A stretch of 21,961 bases of DNA from a virus, in IMG/VR virus record IMGVR_UViG_3300025632_000095, positions 1 to 21,961 of that record. The stretch is one strand, 5' to 3'. Positions 2,744-9,311 of the stretch are shown in pieces (positions within the stretch are counted from its first letter, which is position 1; the number at the start of each line of letters is the position of its first letter). The notes below the pieces were generated by a model. The model saw nothing but the letters and a program-made list of their open reading frames with translations. It was not told where the DNA came from and searched no databases. A program made the position numbers and the translations under genes.

Positions 2744-3256
2744 TTACTTAAATGTAAACACTAATACATATCTTCCACCAATTTTGGGGTAATAGTGATA
2801 ATGTTCTATTTTACCGAAAGATACTCCTCTATACTTTTTAGGAGCTATCTTAGTTTCATCTTTATTTAGTATTACTGTAAACGATTGTCTATCCATTGGT
2901 TGATTCAAATATACTATTAATTGACTATGTTCAAATTCATGGTCAACATGCACAGGTGATATATCTCTCACCCCATTACAAAAAGTAAAGTTTACACATA
3001 TCCTTAATACTTCACTATAACTTATATTGTTCTTATCACAAAACTCATCTAACATTTTTACAAAGATATCATGGTGTTCATGTTTCTCAGTAAAATCTTT
3101 CATTTCAGGTCTTGCCAAAACCACATGATTTAAAAAAGGTGTTTCATCATCTACAACAGATTCACCTTGCATGTAAAGAGGGAAGTGTCTAGTTAATATA
3201 TAACTTTCTATAAACTCTTTACTGTCACTTGATAAAAAATTGTCATCTATAATCAT
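2744..3256 (-). CDS. Oxygenase I: putative Fe(II)/2OG-dependent oxygenase (HxD type)
   Basis: This is the last of nine tandem oxygenase-like genes and encodes 170 residues. The double-stranded beta-helix signature is seen as H103-V-D105 in SPVHVDHEFEHSQLIVYLN, then a distal histidine (H152 or H154 in KIEHYHYYP) and R162 in GGRYVLVF, spaced as expected for 2-oxoglutarate binding. The spacing is prolyl-4-hydroxylase-like, but no substrate can be named. The N-terminus MIIDDNFLSSDSKEF is typical of phage 2OG enzymes, which often open with an (I/Y)IDDNFL-type strand. Its ATG overlaps the TGA of gene H (ATGA) and no ribosome-binding site is visible, so translation is probably coupled. It is shorter than most of the array, and lacks little apart from N-terminal helices. 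Confidence 0.75.
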   Translation of the reverse strand: MIIDDNFLSSDSKEFIESYILTRHFPLYMQGESVVDDETPFLNHVVLARPEMKDFTEKHEHHDIFVKMLDEFCDKNNISYSEVLRICVNFTFCNGVRDISPVHVDHEFEHSQLIVYLNQPMDRQSFTVILNKDETKIAPKKYRGVSFGKIEHYHYYPKIGGRYVLVFTFK

Positions 3257-3750
3257 ATGAATTTAATATTACCACTAACTACTTTTCTAACATTATCATT
3301 ATTAGGTCTAACCTCATGAGGAATACCACCTTTAAATATTACACATCTACCTTTTTTAGCAACAACATGAATTGGTTCTTCCATAACATAAGGATGGCCT
3401 GGGGTATAAAATGTAGTAGGTGATGAATCCTTAGTACAATCTATAAAATATATAAATGAATAGTCTGTAGGATTATGTACATGTACTTGGTGCCAATCAT
3501 GATTATCATATTTTTGCACCCATGTATGTAATAAGTCATAACGAGTTTTATTTAATCTCTCACATACACTATTAAATATATTTTCTAATTCCACATTCAC
3601 CAATTTATTAAACTCAGTGCTTGATTCATTAAAATTATTTAATTGTTCAAAATCTCTTTCTAATTTTATACTGTTAACATAATTGTTAAACTTATTACTC
3701 AGTTCTTTATCTTCAATAAATATAGTATGTGTAAAATTTAATTCTTTCAT
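3253..3750 (-). CDS. Oxygenase H: putative 2OG-oxygenase-fold protein (HxH type)
   Basis: The product has 165 residues. In place of HxD it carries H90-V-H92 in DWHQVHVHNPTDYSFIYFID, followed by GRCVIFKGGIPHEV (distal H145) and R155 in VRKVVSGNIKF. The HxH-P-x-S-x-YFI pattern plus the FPH-like distal motif resembles the 2OG-FeII_Oxy_5-like proteins common in marine phages. Those would bind metal with three histidines. The N-terminal 80 residues are helical and Asn/Glu-rich, without recognisable motifs. It overlaps gene G by ATGA at 3747-3750 and gene I at its end, with no clear ribosome-binding site. Substrate unknown. Confidence 0.68.
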   Translation of the reverse strand: MKELNFTHTIFIEDKELSNKFNNYVNSIKLERDFEQLNNFNESSTEFNKLVNVELENIFNSVCERLNKTRYDLLHTWVQKYDNHDWHQVHVHNPTDYSFIYFIDCTKDSSPTTFYTPGHPYVMEEPIHVVAKKGRCVIFKGGIPHEVRPNNDNVRKVVSGNIKFI

Positions 3751-4364
3751 TTTAAATGTAACTTAGTACACCATCTATCATCACCAATTTCACCTCGTAT
3801 CCATGTATTAAAAGATAATGTTATTCTTGTTTCATCATTCATATTAATTGGAGCCTGATGATAGACTGATGACGGAAATAATATCATTTGATTTTTTTCT
3901 GATTGCACATTTATTTGGTCTGTGTTAAATATGTTTCTTTCAGTATAATTTAAATCCCAATTTAATAAATTATCTCTTGCAAAAAATGTCGTTGTAAATA
4001 TATCACTACCATCAATGTAAAATACACCACTTATAAAACTATTAGAATGATTATGTCTAATGTGTGTTGTGTGCTTATCATTATAGTTAACCCACGAATT
4101 AGTCATGTATATTTCTATATTTTGATTTACTTTTAATACATTATAAGCAAACTCTCTAGTATGTTGCATAATATATTTTTTAAAATAATACTGTGATTTA
4201 TGTTCTAATACATAACAGTCTTTAGAATATAAAGTACAACCAGTAGTTTGATACAAGTCTTCATGATTTATTAAGAAGTTTTTTTCTTCCTCATTTAAAT
4301 TATAAGATTCTGTTATATTAACAACAGGTGTAGAAAATAATAAATTTAATTTAGAACTAGTCAT
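3747..4364 (-). CDS. Oxygenase G: putative 2OG-FeII_Oxy_5-like protein (HxH type)
   Basis: I place the start at ATG 4364, giving 205 residues. An upstream TTG at 4373 is possible, but AAAGG lies at the right distance for the ATG and the ATG sits just after the TGA of gene F. The core is NSWVNYN, then a THIRHNHSNSFISGVFYID segment with H104-N-H106, QMILFPSSVYHQAP with distal H169, and R180 in ETRITLSFNTW. This W-V-N...HxH...SGV(F/Y)Y...LFPS...H...R(I)S-F-N order is the hallmark of the 2OG-FeII_Oxy_5 (TIGR02466-like) family, and this is the clearest member of the four HxH proteins. The N-terminus, NLLFSTPVVNI, also fits that family. Substrate unknown. Confidence 0.8.
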   Translation of the reverse strand: MTSSKLNLLFSTPVVNITESYNLNEEEKNFLINHEDLYQTTGCTLYSKDCYVLEHKSQYYFKKYIMQHTREFAYNVLKVNQNIEIYMTNSWVNYNDKHTTHIRHNHSNSFISGVFYIDGSDIFTTTFFARDNLLNWDLNYTERNIFNTDQINVQSEKNQMILFPSSVYHQAPINMNDETRITLSFNTWIRGEIGDDRWCTKLHLK

Positions 4365-4369
4365 ACATG

Positions 4370-4999
4370 TCAACCTTTAAAAAAGAACACTTGATTTTTT
4401 CTATACTTTTTATTAAAATAAAAATCATTAGATATATCCATGCCATGAGGAAATTCTAAACCATCAAATAAAACTAATCTATTATATTTTGGTTTTATCT
4501 TCTTTAATACTTTATATTTGTTTTTTGGCCGCCACGGCATAAAGTGTTCGTTAAAATGTTTTTTATCATCTGAGGTATTTGATGAGTATAAATTAGTACC
4601 ACATTTATCATTAAAATAAATGATACCATTATATCCAGCATCTGTGTGTGGCCACCAAACACTATTTTTATAATCATTAAATATATTTTTATTAAATCTT
4701 GTCATGTTTGTAATAATATAGTAATCATCATCATATATTTTTTGTTTACATAAATTACTTAAAAATAAATATACCTCTTTTAGTCTTTTATCTTTTTTAA
4801 TTAATCTTCTATCAAAAAAATGACTACCATTAAATGATGGTTCTTCTGCACTTTTCCACAAAGGTGTGTGTTCATCAAAAATAAAATTATCTACTTTATC
4901 TGGGTGCTCGTAAAAATTATCAATGTAATATATGTTATGACCTTGAATACTTTCAGTCTTAATTTTTATATCAGAATTTATTTTAAATATATTAGTCAC
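4370..4999 (-). CDS. Oxygenase F: putative Fe(II)/2OG-dependent oxygenase (HxD type), GTG start
   Basis: The signature is H118-T-D120 in WWPHTDAGYNGIIYFND, GTNLYS, then NRLVLFDGLEFPHGM (distal H185) and R200 in YRKNQVFFF, ending at the C-terminus. The frame is open further upstream, but only by running through the C-terminal codons of gene E. I prefer GTG at 4999, which overlaps the gene E stop by eight bases. It gives 209 residues, in line with the 205-216 of most neighbours, and the protein then begins just before the GHNIYYIDNFYEHPD strand usual at the start of this type. A purine-rich GAGGGGG lies 12 bases upstream, a somewhat long spacing. The alternative ATG at 5038 gives 222 residues. 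Gene A has a related layout (G-I/V-IYL...GT-L). Confidence 0.75.
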   Translation of the reverse strand: MTNIFKINSDIKIKTESIQGHNIYYIDNFYEHPDKVDNFIFDEHTPLWKSAEEPSFNGSHFFDRRLIKKDKRLKEVYLFLSNLCKQKIYDDDYYIITNMTRFNKNIFNDYKNSVWWPHTDAGYNGIIYFNDKCGTNLYSSNTSDDKKHFNEHFMPWRPKNKYKVLKKIKPKYNRLVLFDGLEFPHGMDISNDFYFNKKYRKNQVFFFKG

Positions 5000-5666
5000 A
5001 GGTAATTCTTGCCCCCTCTGAATTAAACTCTTTATCATACTCTGGTAATTCAGTATAAGCAAAATTACCTGATACAGATATTCTTGTTGCTTTAGATTGG
5101 AAAGGAAATACCCAATGGCAAAGTCTTGTAGGGAATATAAAAAAATCACCTGCTTCAGGCATTACATTTACAGAATTAATACAATCTCTTTTACTTGCAA
5201 TTTCATTTGTACCCCAATTAAATGATAACGCTCCAGGTCCTAAACTTGAACCATTATATTTTTGATTTTCTTTTTTTATTACATTTGGAACATCAACAAA
5301 TAAAACAAAAGTAACATCACCATCATGAATATGGGGTGGATTAAAATCTCCAGCCGTCATGTGATTTACCCAAAGTTGTTGAGGTTTCAATGTTACTTTT
5401 GTTTTCCAACCATAAAAATCTATTCCTACTTCTGCCCAAGCATCAAAATAAGGTTCTACTGATTTGTAAAACCAAAGTCTATCTTTAGGATTAATTAAAT
5501 CTTGATGACCATTTGGAAATACACCAGCCAACTCACCACTCCAATCTTCATGACCTTTTGTTTTTTTACATATTTTTTTTAATTTAGTAATATCTTTTTT
5601 AGGATATTTAAAATGAAGTAAAAGAGGCCCCCACGCATAATTTATAAATTCTATATTATCTTTCAT
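4992..5666 (-). CDS. Oxygenase E: putative 2OG-oxygenase-fold protein (HxH type)
   Basis: The product has 224 residues. The core motifs are LWVNHMTAGDFNPPHIHDGD (H112-I-H114) followed by VTFVLFVDVP, then GDFFIFPTRLCHWVFPF (distal H184) and R195 in ATRISVSGNFAY. The W-V-N...PHxH...FP...LxH...RISVSGN order places it with the 2OG-FeII_Oxy_5-like proteins, with HxH in place of HxD. An aspartate follows H114 (HDGD), so an alternative ligand arrangement cannot be excluded. AAGGA lies seven bases before the ATG, a good ribosome-binding site. The start overlaps the end of gene D by 11 bases. A charged C-terminal tail of about 20 residues follows the core. Confidence 0.77.
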   Translation of the reverse strand: MKDNIEFINYAWGPLLLHFKYPKKDITKLKKICKKTKGHEDWSGELAGVFPNGHQDLINPKDRLWFYKSVEPYFDAWAEVGIDFYGWKTKVTLKPQQLWVNHMTAGDFNPPHIHDGDVTFVLFVDVPNVIKKENQKYNGSSLGPGALSFNWGTNEIASKRDCINSVNVMPEAGDFFIFPTRLCHWVFPFQSKATRISVSGNFAYTELPEYDKEFNSEGARITCD

Positions 5667-6276
5667 AATTTTTTCCTTTAAACCACTTAGGAAGACCTAA
5701 ATGTATTCTACCATCAAATTTGTTTATTTTATTTTTTTTATTTTGTATATTGTAATGTAAAAATACTTGTGAACAGTAGTTACCTTTAAATGGGTTTCTC
5801 CAATGTTCTAGTTCACAACCTGAATACAATAACATATCGCCAGGTTTTAATTTTACCTCAACATCTTTTCCTTTTTTATCTGTTAAATATATTGACCACA
5901 TATCACCACCCAGATTTAATGTTGTAGATACCTCACAACTTTTTCTATCTGTATGTTTCTCTAATGTATGTCCTTTTTTGTAAACTCTTGTGTATGCATA
6001 TGTTGGCCATAATTTTAAATTAGTTTCTTTTTCAACAAGTGGTAAACAATTTAATAGTAATGTTTCCATAGCAATATCTGCATATTGAGAATATGCATTC
6101 CAACATTGTCGGTCTTCTCTAGTTCCCCAATCATCTGAAAAGGGTATTATATATCTACTATCTTTTAATGTATCATGTACTTGTTCTTTTAATAAAATAT
6201 AGTTATTAACAAAATCAACAATATCTTTTGATACTGCCTTTCTTATAATTTTATATTTTTCTTTTTTAAATGTCAT
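5656..6276 (-). CDS. Oxygenase D: putative 2OG-Fe(II) oxygenase superfamily protein (HxD type, Arg replaced)
   Basis: This 206-residue protein belongs to a type I recognise from marine T4-like phages. Its motifs are PTYAYTRVYKKGHTLEKHTD (H108-T-D110), RKSCEVSTTLNLGGD, KPGDMLLYSGCELEHWRNPF (distal H158) and CSQVFLHYN. At the usual 2-oxoglutarate arginine position, about 12 residues past the distal histidine, there is Q170; relatives I recall also have QVFLHYN here, so this looks like a family trait rather than decay. Either R160 or another residue must hold the cosubstrate, or the enzyme is atypical. A basic tail of about 30 residues follows the core. The ATG overlaps the stop of gene C (ATGA). 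Confidence 0.82.
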   Translation of the reverse strand: MTFKKEKYKIIRKAVSKDIVDFVNNYILLKEQVHDTLKDSRYIIPFSDDWGTREDRQCWNAYSQYADIAMETLLLNCLPLVEKETNLKLWPTYAYTRVYKKGHTLEKHTDRKSCEVSTTLNLGGDMWSIYLTDKKGKDVEVKLKPGDMLLYSGCELEHWRNPFKGNYCSQVFLHYNIQNKKNKINKFDGRIHLGLPKWFKGKNYER

Positions 6277-6899
6277 ATTGCTTGTAAATTAAAATGTATA
6301 AATCTAAATGGTTCTATGCCAGGGTCTACTGCAAACTGATGTGGTAAGTAAGAATTAAATAACATTAAAGTGCCTGGTTTAGGTTTGTAATATATTTTAT
6401 TTGATGATAAAGTTACATCACCTATATTTGCTTCAGATAAATCTGTCATTACCTTACCAGGCCTAGGGTCTTCAAACATTGGATAAGATGTATTTTCAGA
6501 ACATTTTAAAAAGTAAAAACCAGACATGTGAGCATTTGAATGAACATGATATGATTGATGTCCACCACCTAATTTTGAAAACTCTTGAACCCAATAATCA
6601 TTTAGTTTTACTTTTTTTCTAGATAAGTCATACCCTTGTTGTATCAATATATCTCTAGACACACCAATTATAAAATCTGCTAAAACAGAAAAGTTATTAT
6701 CACCTATTAAAGTATAAGAACAATGTGAACCACCAAAATCTTTTTTACCACCTTTTAAATTTTCTTTTCTAACTTCTCTAATATATTTGTTAGAGTGTTT
6801 GTTTAAATCTTTTAACCATGATGGTATATATGCACTATAAACACCACTAGTAAAATAACTATCCATTCTAACTTCAAAATTATTATTATCTATTGCCAT
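6273..6899 (-). CDS. Oxygenase C: putative 2OG-FeII_Oxy_5-like protein (HxH type)
   Basis: The product has 208 residues. The core reads YWVQEFSKLGGGHQSYHVHS (H118-V-H120), HMSGFYFLKC, FEDPRPGK (142-149), then YYKPKPGTLMLFNSYLPHQF (distal H187) and R199 in EPFRFIHFNL, at the very end. The SG-(F/Y)-YFL and (F)EDPRPG motifs with a KPxPGTL-LF-S-LPH distal strand are characteristic of 2OG-FeII_Oxy_5 proteins. The function is presumably oxidation of an unknown substrate. An AGGT sequence five bases before the ATG may serve as ribosome-binding site. The start overlaps the end of gene B by 10 bases. Confidence 0.8.
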   Translation of the reverse strand: MAIDNNNFEVRMDSYFTSGVYSAYIPSWLKDLNKHSNKYIREVRKENLKGGKKDFGGSHCSYTLIGDNNFSVLADFIIGVSRDILIQQGYDLSRKKVKLNDYWVQEFSKLGGGHQSYHVHSNAHMSGFYFLKCSENTSYPMFEDPRPGKVMTDLSEANIGDVTLSSNKIYYKPKPGTLMLFNSYLPHQFAVDPGIEPFRFIHFNLQAI

Positions 6900-7540
6900 G
6901 GTTTACCTAACGACCAACAAACTAATGAGTTTCTTTCGCCCCTTGTTACTTTTTTAATTCTATGATATAAAAAACTAGGAAATATTACTATACTACCTCT
7001 TGGTTTAAATTCTTTACATATTCTCGTTACTTGTTTTTTATCTGGTCTACTATCTGGGAAACAAAACTCTAATTCACCACCACTGTATTTTTTAGGGTCT
7101 GTTAACTGTATTATACTTGATAACTTTCTAATCTTACCTACATAGTTTTTATTATATGTAGATAGGTTACTGTCTGGGTCTTTATCTTTGTCTTTGTATG
7201 GGCTACCCCAATCATCCCAATGCCAATTATAAAACTGTCCTTTTTTATAATGTGTAAACTGTGCTACCTCACTCCAATCCCATTGATAGTTCCAATTTGC
7301 ATTTTTATTTGCTATTTGAATATAAGGATTTAATATTTGATATATCCATGGCTCATCTATCCAATTTACATCAGAGTTTCTTTGATTAACTATGTCTTGA
7401 TATTTTTCTTTTGCATAAGTACCTAAACCTATTTTTGCTCTTACTTTTTCTCTTGTTGATTTTACATATTCAATAATATCATCACATTGCTTATCAGATA
7501 AAACAGAATCAAAATACCAATAATAGTTTTTTAAGTTCAT
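6890..7540 (-). CDS. Oxygenase B: PKHD/prolyl-4-hydroxylase-like 2OG-Fe(II) oxygenase (HxD type)
   Basis: The product has 216 residues. It has AQFTHYKKGQFYNWHWDD (H107-W-D109), SSIIQLTDPKKYSGGELEF (141-159), PRGSIVIFPSFLYHRI (distal H193), and R203 in GERNSLVCWSLGKPW. The Y-xx-GQFY-WHxD, SGGELEF, G-(S/A)-xx-(I/V)FPSFLxHRV and R-(S/N)-LV-W-GP order is that of PKHD-type hydroxylases (prolyl/lysyl hydroxylase-like). A Lys/Asp-rich loop (about 112-125) is inserted after the HxD. Of the nine, this is the best candidate for a protein hydroxylase. It has a strong ribosome-binding site (AGGTGA, six-base spacing) and an exact late promoter upstream, inside the end of gene A, so it heads an eight-gene transcript. 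Confidence 0.86.
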   Translation of the reverse strand: MNLKNYYWYFDSVLSDKQCDDIIEYVKSTREKVRAKIGLGTYAKEKYQDIVNQRNSDVNWIDEPWIYQILNPYIQIANKNANWNYQWDWSEVAQFTHYKKGQFYNWHWDDWGSPYKDKDKDPDSNLSTYNKNYVGKIRKLSSIIQLTDPKKYSGGELEFCFPDSRPDKKQVTRICKEFKPRGSIVIFPSFLYHRIKKVTRGERNSLVCWSLGKPWQ

Positions 7541-7557
7541 AACAAATCACCTGTAAA

Positions 7558-8178
7558 TTATATACAATTATTTATAACATATTTTTTATCTATATTTTCT
7601 GATTCCTCATCTTTAAATACAAATAATGTTTGAATAAATCTAGATTCAAGATTCATATCAAATCCTGCTTGATGAAAAGTATCGGCAGGATATAATATAC
7701 ATCTATTATATACTGAACCAACCTGTATGTCTTGTTCAAATTGTGGTGCAATATTATTTCTAGTAAATAGTCTAGTGCCTGAATCAAAAGAATATTTTTT
7801 ATCTAGATAAATTACACCAGCATAACTAAACTCACCACCATCATCATGAGCTACTCCTTTGCCATCTTTACACACACTTTTTAATAACTCATCTTTATAT
7901 ATTTTTCTAAAAAAAGTTCTGAATTTTTTAATGTCAGGTAATAAATTATTTTTTAATTTGTTAAATAAATTAGTATAGATAAGACTATTTTCGTTTACCT
8001 CATATGTTTCATGACAAGGATACGCTTGAAATCTACTTGAATAAAAATCTCTACCAAAGTGTGGTTGACAAGTAGGGGAAAATTCTAATTGATTTGTACG
8101 AGTGGATATCTCTTTAAATAAAGTATTTAATTCTTCATCAGTATAGAAATCATCAATTATTTCAATCGGTCTTTTCAT
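7558..8178 (-). CDS. Oxygenase A: putative Fe(II)/2OG-dependent oxygenase (HxD type)
   Basis: This is the first of the nine oxygenase-like genes and encodes 206 residues. The start MKRPIEIIDDFYTDEELNTL is a typical opening. The signature is H111-D-D113 in KGVAHDDGGEFSYAGVIYLD, then SGTRLFTR (133-140), NRCILYPADTFHQAGF (distal H169) and R180 in ESRFIQTLFVF. The layout is close to that of oxygenase F. No ribosome-binding site precedes the ATG, and a near-consensus late promoter (CATAAATA) lies only 10 bases upstream, so a transcript from it would have an extremely short leader. Read-through from the glycine-rich gene upstream is the other likely source of its mRNA. Its last codons contain the late promoter for gene B. 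Confidence 0.77.
   Translation of the reverse strand: MKRPIEIIDDFYTDEELNTLFKEISTRTNQLEFSPTCQPHFGRDFYSSRFQAYPCHETYEVNENSLIYTNLFNKLKNNLLPDIKKFRTFFRKIYKDELLKSVCKDGKGVAHDDGGEFSYAGVIYLDKKYSFDSGTRLFTRNNIAPQFEQDIQVGSVYNRCILYPADTFHQAGFDMNLESRFIQTLFVFKDEESENIDKKYVINNCI
7569..7576 (-). promoter_or_regulatory. T4-type late promoter for the oxygenase operon (genes B-I)
   Basis: The minus strand reads exactly TATAAATA, inside the last codons of gene A (coding Ile-Asn-Asn). It ends 28 bases before the gene B ATG, with AGGTGA between, which is the same geometry as the other late promoters here. It would drive eight oxygenase genes with few or no other signals before 2744. Confidence 0.75.
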
Positions 8179-8198: not shown

Positions 8199-9311
8199 TT
8201 AAGAATTAGGCCATGTGTCTGCAGCTCTAGCTTCTAATTGGTCAGTTAAATCAAATATACCAGAAGCACTAGCAGCTACACATATTGCTGGTTGTTTTAT
8301 TTTTACAAAACCAGAACCTCCAGCTGCACCACTAAAACCTTGACCTGTTAGAAATCCACTTCCACCAGCTCCACCAGCTCCACCACCTTTATTTGCAGCA
8401 CCAGCTTGAGCTCCAATCGTTCCATGATAGGCTCCACCTCTGCCACCGCCAGGGCCACAAGCAGGTTGTGTGTAACAGTTACCAAAAGCACCTCCAGAAC
8501 CGCAACGGCCTGGGCTACCACATGGGGTGTTTTGATATCCACCGCCGCCTCCACCACCACCGAATAATACGGTGCCAGTTAAAGGTGATGCTTTTCCTTT
8601 TCCACCATCACCAGTTTCACCATAAAGATTAGGGTTTGGGCCACCACCTTCAGGTGCTTGTGGACTTACAGGAGCACATTTATAACCTTGACCAATACCA
8701 TCTGTACCTGTACATGCTCCACCGCCACCACGACCAGAAGAATTATTTCCTTGTGGGCCACCTTTAGCACTTGGAGCAGGGGGTGTATTTCCTACATTAC
8801 CAGCAGTGCCTGGATTGTATCCACCACCAGCAGAACCACCTGGTCCACCATTTGCTAGTCTGTGTCCATATCCACCACCTGTTGCTGTGACATTACATAT
8901 ACCTGGGCCTGTAATACTAGAATCTCCACCTCGACCTGTACAACTATCTCCTGTTGATGCCGAACCACCAGCACCTACAGTAATTGTTAAATCTGTGCCA
9001 CCTGTTACAGGGAAACAAGCTTTAGTGAGTAATCCCCCACCACCACCGCCACCTGAGCCAGGGTGTTGTTGAGAACTTGAACAACAAGAACCACCACCAC
9101 CAGCAACAATTAAGTATTCTATTACTGTTGTTGCACAAGCTAGTGTTACTGTACCTGATGATGTAAATGTAGATACTACTTCATCTTCTGATGATGCTGC
9201 TTGAATTGTCGCACCACCTCTAGTAATTGAGGCAGGGTCTCTGTCAATAAATCTTTGACTAACCAAAGTTCCTACAAATCCACCTCTACCTTTTGAATAT
9301 CCTCTTGCCAT
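8199..9311 (-). CDS. Glycine- and cysteine-rich adhesin-like (tail fibre tip) protein
   Basis: The product has 370 residues. A short N-terminal part (MARGYSKGRGGFVG..., about 1-60) leads into TTVIEYLIVAGGGGSCC, the usual opening of the marine phage glycine-rich domain. About 260 residues of glycine-dominated sequence follow, with runs of up to eight glycines. It closes with GGSGFVKIKQP and a short tail, IFDLTDQLEARAADTWP, found at the end of other marine phage structural proteins. Polyglycine helix bundles form the receptor-binding tips of some T4-like phage adhesins, so a host-recognition role is likely but inferred. Unusually, there are 13 cysteines spread through the protein. The ATG overlaps the preceding stop (TAATG). 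Confidence 0.75.
   Translation of the reverse strand: MARGYSKGRGGFVGTLVSQRFIDRDPASITRGGATIQAASSEDEVVSTFTSSGTVTLACATTVIEYLIVAGGGGSCCSSSQQHPGSGGGGGGGLLTKACFPVTGGTDLTITVGAGGSASTGDSCTGRGGDSSITGPGICNVTATGGGYGHRLANGGPGGSAGGGYNPGTAGNVGNTPPAPSAKGGPQGNNSSGRGGGGACTGTDGIGQGYKCAPVSPQAPEGGGPNPNLYGETGDGGKGKASPLTGTVLFGGGGGGGGYQNTPCGSPGRCGSGGAFGNCYTQPACGPGGGRGGAYHGTIGAQAGAANKGGGAGGAGGSGFLTGQGFSGAAGGSGFVKIKQPAICVAASASGIFDLTDQLEARAADTWPNS

Follow-up and report, generated by a model that had tools for sequence, protein, structure and literature searches.

Two interleaved kinds of oxygenase-like gene in a nine-gene array of a marine phage: a predicted three-histidine metal site and linkage to a glycine-rich gene

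We analysed a stretch of viral DNA of 21,961 bases (IMG/VR virus record IMGVR_UViG_3300025632_000095, here called the window) for an array of nine genes on its minus strand, named A to I in the order of transcription, whose products carry either an HxD or an HxH metal-site motif. It is virtually certain that the split between the two motifs is a split between protein families, and that the interleaved types are thus interleaved families. For the HxH members a three-histidine metal site is predicted with good confidence, and the array lies directly downstream of a glycine-rich gene; the best reading as a whole, to which we assign a rough probability of 0.5, is that co-expressed oxygenases of the Fe/2-oxoglutarate (2OG) type hydroxylate the adjacent glycine-rich fibre. 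It is this combination of predicted three-histidine chemistry and glycine-rich linkage that makes the array worth following. The original prediction, made from the letters of this DNA, had placed nine open reading frames (ORFs) at positions 2744–8178 with the motif order D, D, H, D, H, D, H, H, D from A to I, and both coordinates and order proved correct.

The HxH members are C (6273–6899, 208 aa; HVH, H118xH120...H187), E (4992–5666, 224 aa; HIH, H112xH114...H184), G (3747–4364, 205 aa from ATG 4364, which is probably its start; HNH...H, with H107, H109 and H172 in a 208-aa numbering) and H (3253–3750, 165 aa; HVH, H90xH92...H145). All four match phrog_81 and also PF13759, where H is a borderline case. 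Against PF13759, with a cut-off of 27 bits, C scores 52.6, E 51.4 and G 63.4 bits, and H reaches 25.8 bits alone and 27.7 bits together with neighbouring matches in its frame; for TIGR02466 (cut-off 62.5 bits) C and G lie above the cut-off with 65.8 and 64.9 bits, E and H below it with 35.9 and 26.4 bits. The SG-x-YY/FPS-like motif that had been described as common to the four is shared only loosely, with SG present in C and G and replaced by TF in E and SF in H, and with FPS found in G only (C has FNS, E FPT, H FKG).

None of these four proteins has the 2-His-1-carboxylate triad HxD/E...H, and all have HxH...H instead. In an alignment of the family from which one of 226 distinct sequences, shorter than 150 aa, was left out, HxH..H is conserved in 141 of 145 distinct viral rows, so that HxH is not a product of chance. 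Of the other four rows, L011, L140 and L092 are HxD-type cross-matches (two with HxD..H, one misaligned as AxH), and L020 is cut by a contig end. The same pattern is found in all 80 close alphaproteobacterial rows and in 65 of 70 broader cellular matches from a phylum-wide sample, in which 53 of 299 genomes of one phylum match the family; these 70 were examined out of 79 match rows, the other nine being weak or duplicate ones that were not fetched, and the five exceptions comprise one HxH protein lacking the distal part in the fetched reading frame and four weak matches. A nearby Asp or Glu completing a normal triad, named beforehand as the observation that would speak against a three-histidine site, was looked for in the viral and cellular alignments and in the four window proteins, and no conserved acidic column that could replace the carboxylate was found. 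At column 133, which alone is acidic in the cellular rows as well as in most of the viral ones, C, E, G and H have D, G, R and T, respectively. The proposal that the HxH members offer three histidines rather than the usual triad therefore stands, and the conservation argues that PF13759 uses its site.

Profile alignment places this site onto that of the HxD enzymes. C aligns with B at a probability of 95.9% (E 5.9e-9), pairing H118 with H107, H120 with D109 and H187 with H193, and with D at 82.2% (E 1e-5), where the second His of HxH lies opposite the Asp of HxD. The AlphaFold model of C (predicted local distance difference test, pLDDT, 94.8) is a double-stranded beta-helix, whose nearest solved folds are 3bvc and 2rg4 (VIA Z 21.2 and 20.8), followed by SnoN and PHD2 (16.1), the chlorella-virus collagen prolyl hydroxylase 5c5t (15.9) and other 2OG oxygenases. 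At the position expected to bind 2OG, a basic residue (Arg or Lys) stands in all but one of the 145 viral rows and in all 80 cellular ones. From these sequence features, 2OG-dependent activity of C, E, G and H is predicted as rather likely. The structures 3bvc and 2rg4 belong to PF13759/TIGR02466 and share HxH...H...R, fold and family scores with the window genes; they are, however, bacterial proteins titled 'uncharacterized', whereas the window has four copies in one phage operon. The comparison with a halogenase-like site did not hold. In aliphatic halogenases the carboxylate is lost to Ala or Gly and the halide is bound in that place; PF13759 has His at this position, so that a SyrB2-type site was rejected, and the nearest folds are 3bvc and 2rg4, then prolyl-hydroxylase types. 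The cysteine dioxygenase cupin family gave no Pfam match and was not among the 50 structural rows shown, which excludes nothing. A comparable replacement of the metal Asp by His, with an HxHxnH-type motif, is described for the JFP6 JmjC proteins, which differ in belonging to the JmjC family and in having been found by surveying the genomes of animals and other eukaryotes, and whose activity, in the part of the report available to us, is left open by its authors (PMC2453528).

The HxD members fall into other families. B (6890–7540, 216 aa; HWD, H107xD109...H193) is a PKHD(PiuC)-like protein of phrog_61 and PF13640 (2OG-FeII_Oxy_3; 47.5 bits, cut-off 27), with H107, D109 and H193 unchanged in all 28 aligned rows. 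D (5656–6276, 206 aa; HTD, H108xD110...H158) belongs to phrog_2954, a family with HxD..H in 44 of 44 rows, and its AlphaFold model (pLDDT 94.0) matches prolyl 4-hydroxylases. The database label of phrog_2954, ferrochelatase, was considered for D and rejected, given a fold of the 2OG-oxygenase type, the invariant HxD...H and a Pfam search that, at E up to 1, matched no ferrochelatase family; homologues of D carrying this label, which looks wrong, include L002:9035-9721 and L347:4845-5435. A (7558–8178, 206 aa; HDD...H169...R180) and F (4370–4999, about 209 aa from GTG 4999; HTD...H) both belong to phrog_1644, whose label 'minor coat protein' is doubtful for these two members with HxD...H motifs and weak DUF6445 matches. 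I (2744–3256, 170 aa; HVD, H103xD105...H152...R162) belongs to phrog_274, in which H103, D105, H152 and R162 are kept in seven of seven aligned rows. Since profile comparisons of I with B and C were not significant (probability 4% and 6%), its placement rests on the motif and the PHROG match; judged by sequence, the phrog_274 family, labelled 'DNA endonuclease V', looks like an HxD oxygenase family and the label appears wrong. In Synechococcus phage ACG-2014f, a single 362-aa ORF (L346:4974-6062) matches the profiles of D and B and has two HxD motifs, an apparent fusion.

Regarding the position of such cassettes, we counted ORFs with at least 20% Gly within three genes upstream, in fetched viral loci that include three sets of 80, each the best-scoring part of a longer list. 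L085, L174, L175 and the window, being the same or nearly the same contigs as L007 and L086, were omitted from cassette and run counts. Of the 77 cassettes whose upstream sequence was long enough, 58 have such a glycine-rich ORF there; one was found downstream of a cassette in 1 of 55 cases, and for control genes in 2 of 130 cases at the same loci and 6 of 385 at other loci; at an easier threshold of 14% Gly, 72 of 86 loci have one. When first genes were collapsed at 60% identity, the glycine-rich neighbour was present in 12 of 22 groups. The isolate S-SSM5 has a 34%-Gly ORF and a carbamoyltransferase followed by six oxygenases of both kinds, and L333 has two glycine-rich ORFs followed by I, B, C and D. 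In the window, the glycine-rich protein (8199–9311, minus strand; 370 aa, 28% Gly; PF21722 Gly_rich_2, tail-fibre-like) is encoded 20 bases upstream of A. The position of the cassette directly downstream of a glycine-rich gene is new here, and its constancy provides a concrete candidate substrate for so far unexplained phage genes. As a separate observation, with about 13 cysteines among its 370 residues (3.5%), the glycine-rich protein of the window seems atypical of phage fibres.

We propose a model in which the array comprises nine double-stranded beta-helix oxygenase-like genes, whose products would be made together with the virion proteins late in infection. The HxH members would bind Fe(II) through three histidines and use 2OG, held by the conserved Arg, and the set would hydroxylate the adjacent glycine-rich fibre protein, each enzyme with its own specificity. 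That this fibre is the substrate, as linkage and fold suggest, is plausible, if tentative; the fold neighbours of the C model include protein hydroxylases, among them the viral collagen prolyl hydroxylase. More doubtful, though possible, is the broader proposal that PF13759 is a natural, abundant class of three-histidine Fe(II)/2OG oxygenases, joined with HxD enzymes in co-transcribed phage sets that would hydroxylate several types of fibre residue. No title on a glycine-rich fibre substrate or on the metal chemistry of PF13759, and no account of hydroxylation of glycine-rich tail fibres as a virion-protein modification, was found in our searches of the open-licence PubMed Central (PMC) literature. 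Several observations weigh against the model. As many as 46 of the 77 cassettes form one first-gene group, so that shared ancestry explains part of the glycine-rich linkage, and a smaller test on neck-gene loci, made before the cassette-centred test with its controls, was not significant (3 of 10 versus 2 of 25, p 0.13). Several cyanophages have their D homologue well away from the fibre genes (beside the sliding clamp in S-RIM14, after NAD synthetase in ACG-2014f), and some cyanophage homologues are found in replication or metabolic regions. Furthermore, the engineered three-histidine variant D414H of human prolyl 4-hydroxylase is reported, in the part of the paper available to us, to have no detectable activity, and replacement of the same Asp by Ala or Gly yielded no halogenase (PMC2767507). 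The HxH members may consequently be inactive or do something else, and this nearest experiment warns that PF13759 may be something other than a usual hydroxylase; yet the family retains across phages and bacteria the very His that abolishes the human enzyme.

This loss of activity would fit HxH members that have no catalytic activity and act as scaffold partners of the HxD enzymes, and C indeed usually sits between them, with B directly before and D directly after in 61 of 94 C-class genes. Dead copies would, however, be expected to drift, whereas viral and cellular rows alike retain the three histidines and the Arg/Lys with very few exceptions, and we regard such a role as quite unlikely. Somewhat less so, but still unlikely, is that small molecules or host metabolism are the target of the enzymes, or that these lower 2OG to steer nitrogen-stress signalling (Sullivan 2010, on cyanophages). 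Modulation of 2OG, along with DNA repair, is proposed in the part of PMC3037559 available to us, and the occurrence of homologues outside fibre regions agrees with it, but burning 2OG would need no nine non-identical enzymes with conserved active sites, and the array location is tied to a glycine-rich gene. Modification of DNA or nucleotides by AlkB- or TET-like activity appears improbable: although some of the genes carry the DNA endonuclease V label (phrog_274) and the D model has human ABH8 as its match of rank 50, those labels look wrong, protein prolyl hydroxylases and small-molecule oxygenases lead the fold matches, and the genes are placed among structural genes.

With respect to origin, an array made by recent tandem duplication within the phage might be suggested by neighbouring genes of one fold, but is exceedingly improbable. 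Pairwise identity among C, E, G and H is only 18–24% (G to C, E and H: 19, 18 and 24%), and an approximately unbiased (AU) test rejects these four as one clade (p 0.00017), which rules out recent tandem duplication for them. In a tree of 85 rows, supported groups of 25 and 16 rows contain C and G, respectively, and no further window gene; E and H belong to no small group with support. B to I each match other fetched phages better than array members, the exception being A with a weak match to G; best outside matches have 49% identity for B, 53% for C and 60% for D, and those of G, H and I, in L177, have 77, 83 and 85%. The view that the proteins are too divergent for recent tandem duplication was thus borne out, and a phylogeny with all nine as close paralogues was looked for and not found. 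An origin from different lineages is likewise supported by family matches, tree and AU test, but the word 'assembled' needs qualifying, as the array contains at least two older blocks, B-C-D and G-H-I. B-C-D is also present in HTVC023P and HTVC033P, phages with a different kind of genome (53–61 kb), and G-H-I is found again in L177. Both families are present in 78 of 78 runs of at least three genes, in a sample biased by two of four queries being C-type and D-type; mixed HxD/HxH cassettes are normal in these phages. Nine is the longest of 144 runs, and both nine-gene runs come from one phage type, that of the window.

Oxygenase clusters of this kind are already in print, and the window adds a large one. 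In HTVC023P-type pelagiphages, Wittmers et al. (2022, PMC9599517) describe eight 2OG oxygenases that are not orthologous, together with a neighbouring 'ferrochelatase'; these phages resemble the window in having several such genes close together and, in HTVC023P, B-C-D; the window differs in having nine contiguous genes, and the portion of that account available to us makes no HxH-versus-HxD distinction and mentions no glycine-rich neighbour. Judging by the D model and by HxD..H in each of 44 rows, the 'ferrochelatase' partner would itself be of the oxygenase type. Mixed HxD and HxH cassettes are also found in the isolates HTVC008M and Mosig EXVC030M, near fibre or neck genes, and in S-SSM5, behind the glycine-rich ORF, but with five to six genes in other orders. 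One gene of the S-SSM5 cassette (L347:7251-7769) is annotated 'leprecan-like 1 isoform 2', which we take to be the name of a collagen prolyl hydroxylase. The chlorella-virus collagen prolyl hydroxylase (vCPH, 5c5t/5c5u) is a viral protein hydroxylase that matches the fold of C and, weakly, B (E 0.0045). It is an HxD enzyme, and its substrate is collagen-like, unlike the glycine-rich fibres of these phages.

The window has the layout of a T4-like, marine phage, in which the array is a late-region cassette. Its minus-strand genes include a gp8-like baseplate wedge (PF09215), a 2121-aa DUF4815 protein, tail-fibre-like ORFs, the glycine-rich protein, the array and, downstream of it, the neck genes: a head-tail adaptor or neck protein (1746–2558, phrog_211) and a T4 neck protein (725–1741, PF11649/phrog_460). 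Relatives include Kyanoviridae pelagiphages. All nine genes recur in the same order in two other IMG/VR contigs (L007, L086) and in parts in L008, L093 and L176, so that the array is not an assembly accident. For F, the mechanical start at 5149 would overlap E by 158 bases; GTG 4999, behind AGAGGGGG and near the start of the phrog_1644 match (residue 53), is likelier. A scan for promoters and terminators gave no more sites than in shuffles. With starts at 4999 for F and 4364 for G, the junctions from A to I measure 17, -10, -4, -11, -8, 5, -4 and -4 bases, seven of the eight being overlaps or gaps of at most 5 bases, with A-B (17) as the exception.

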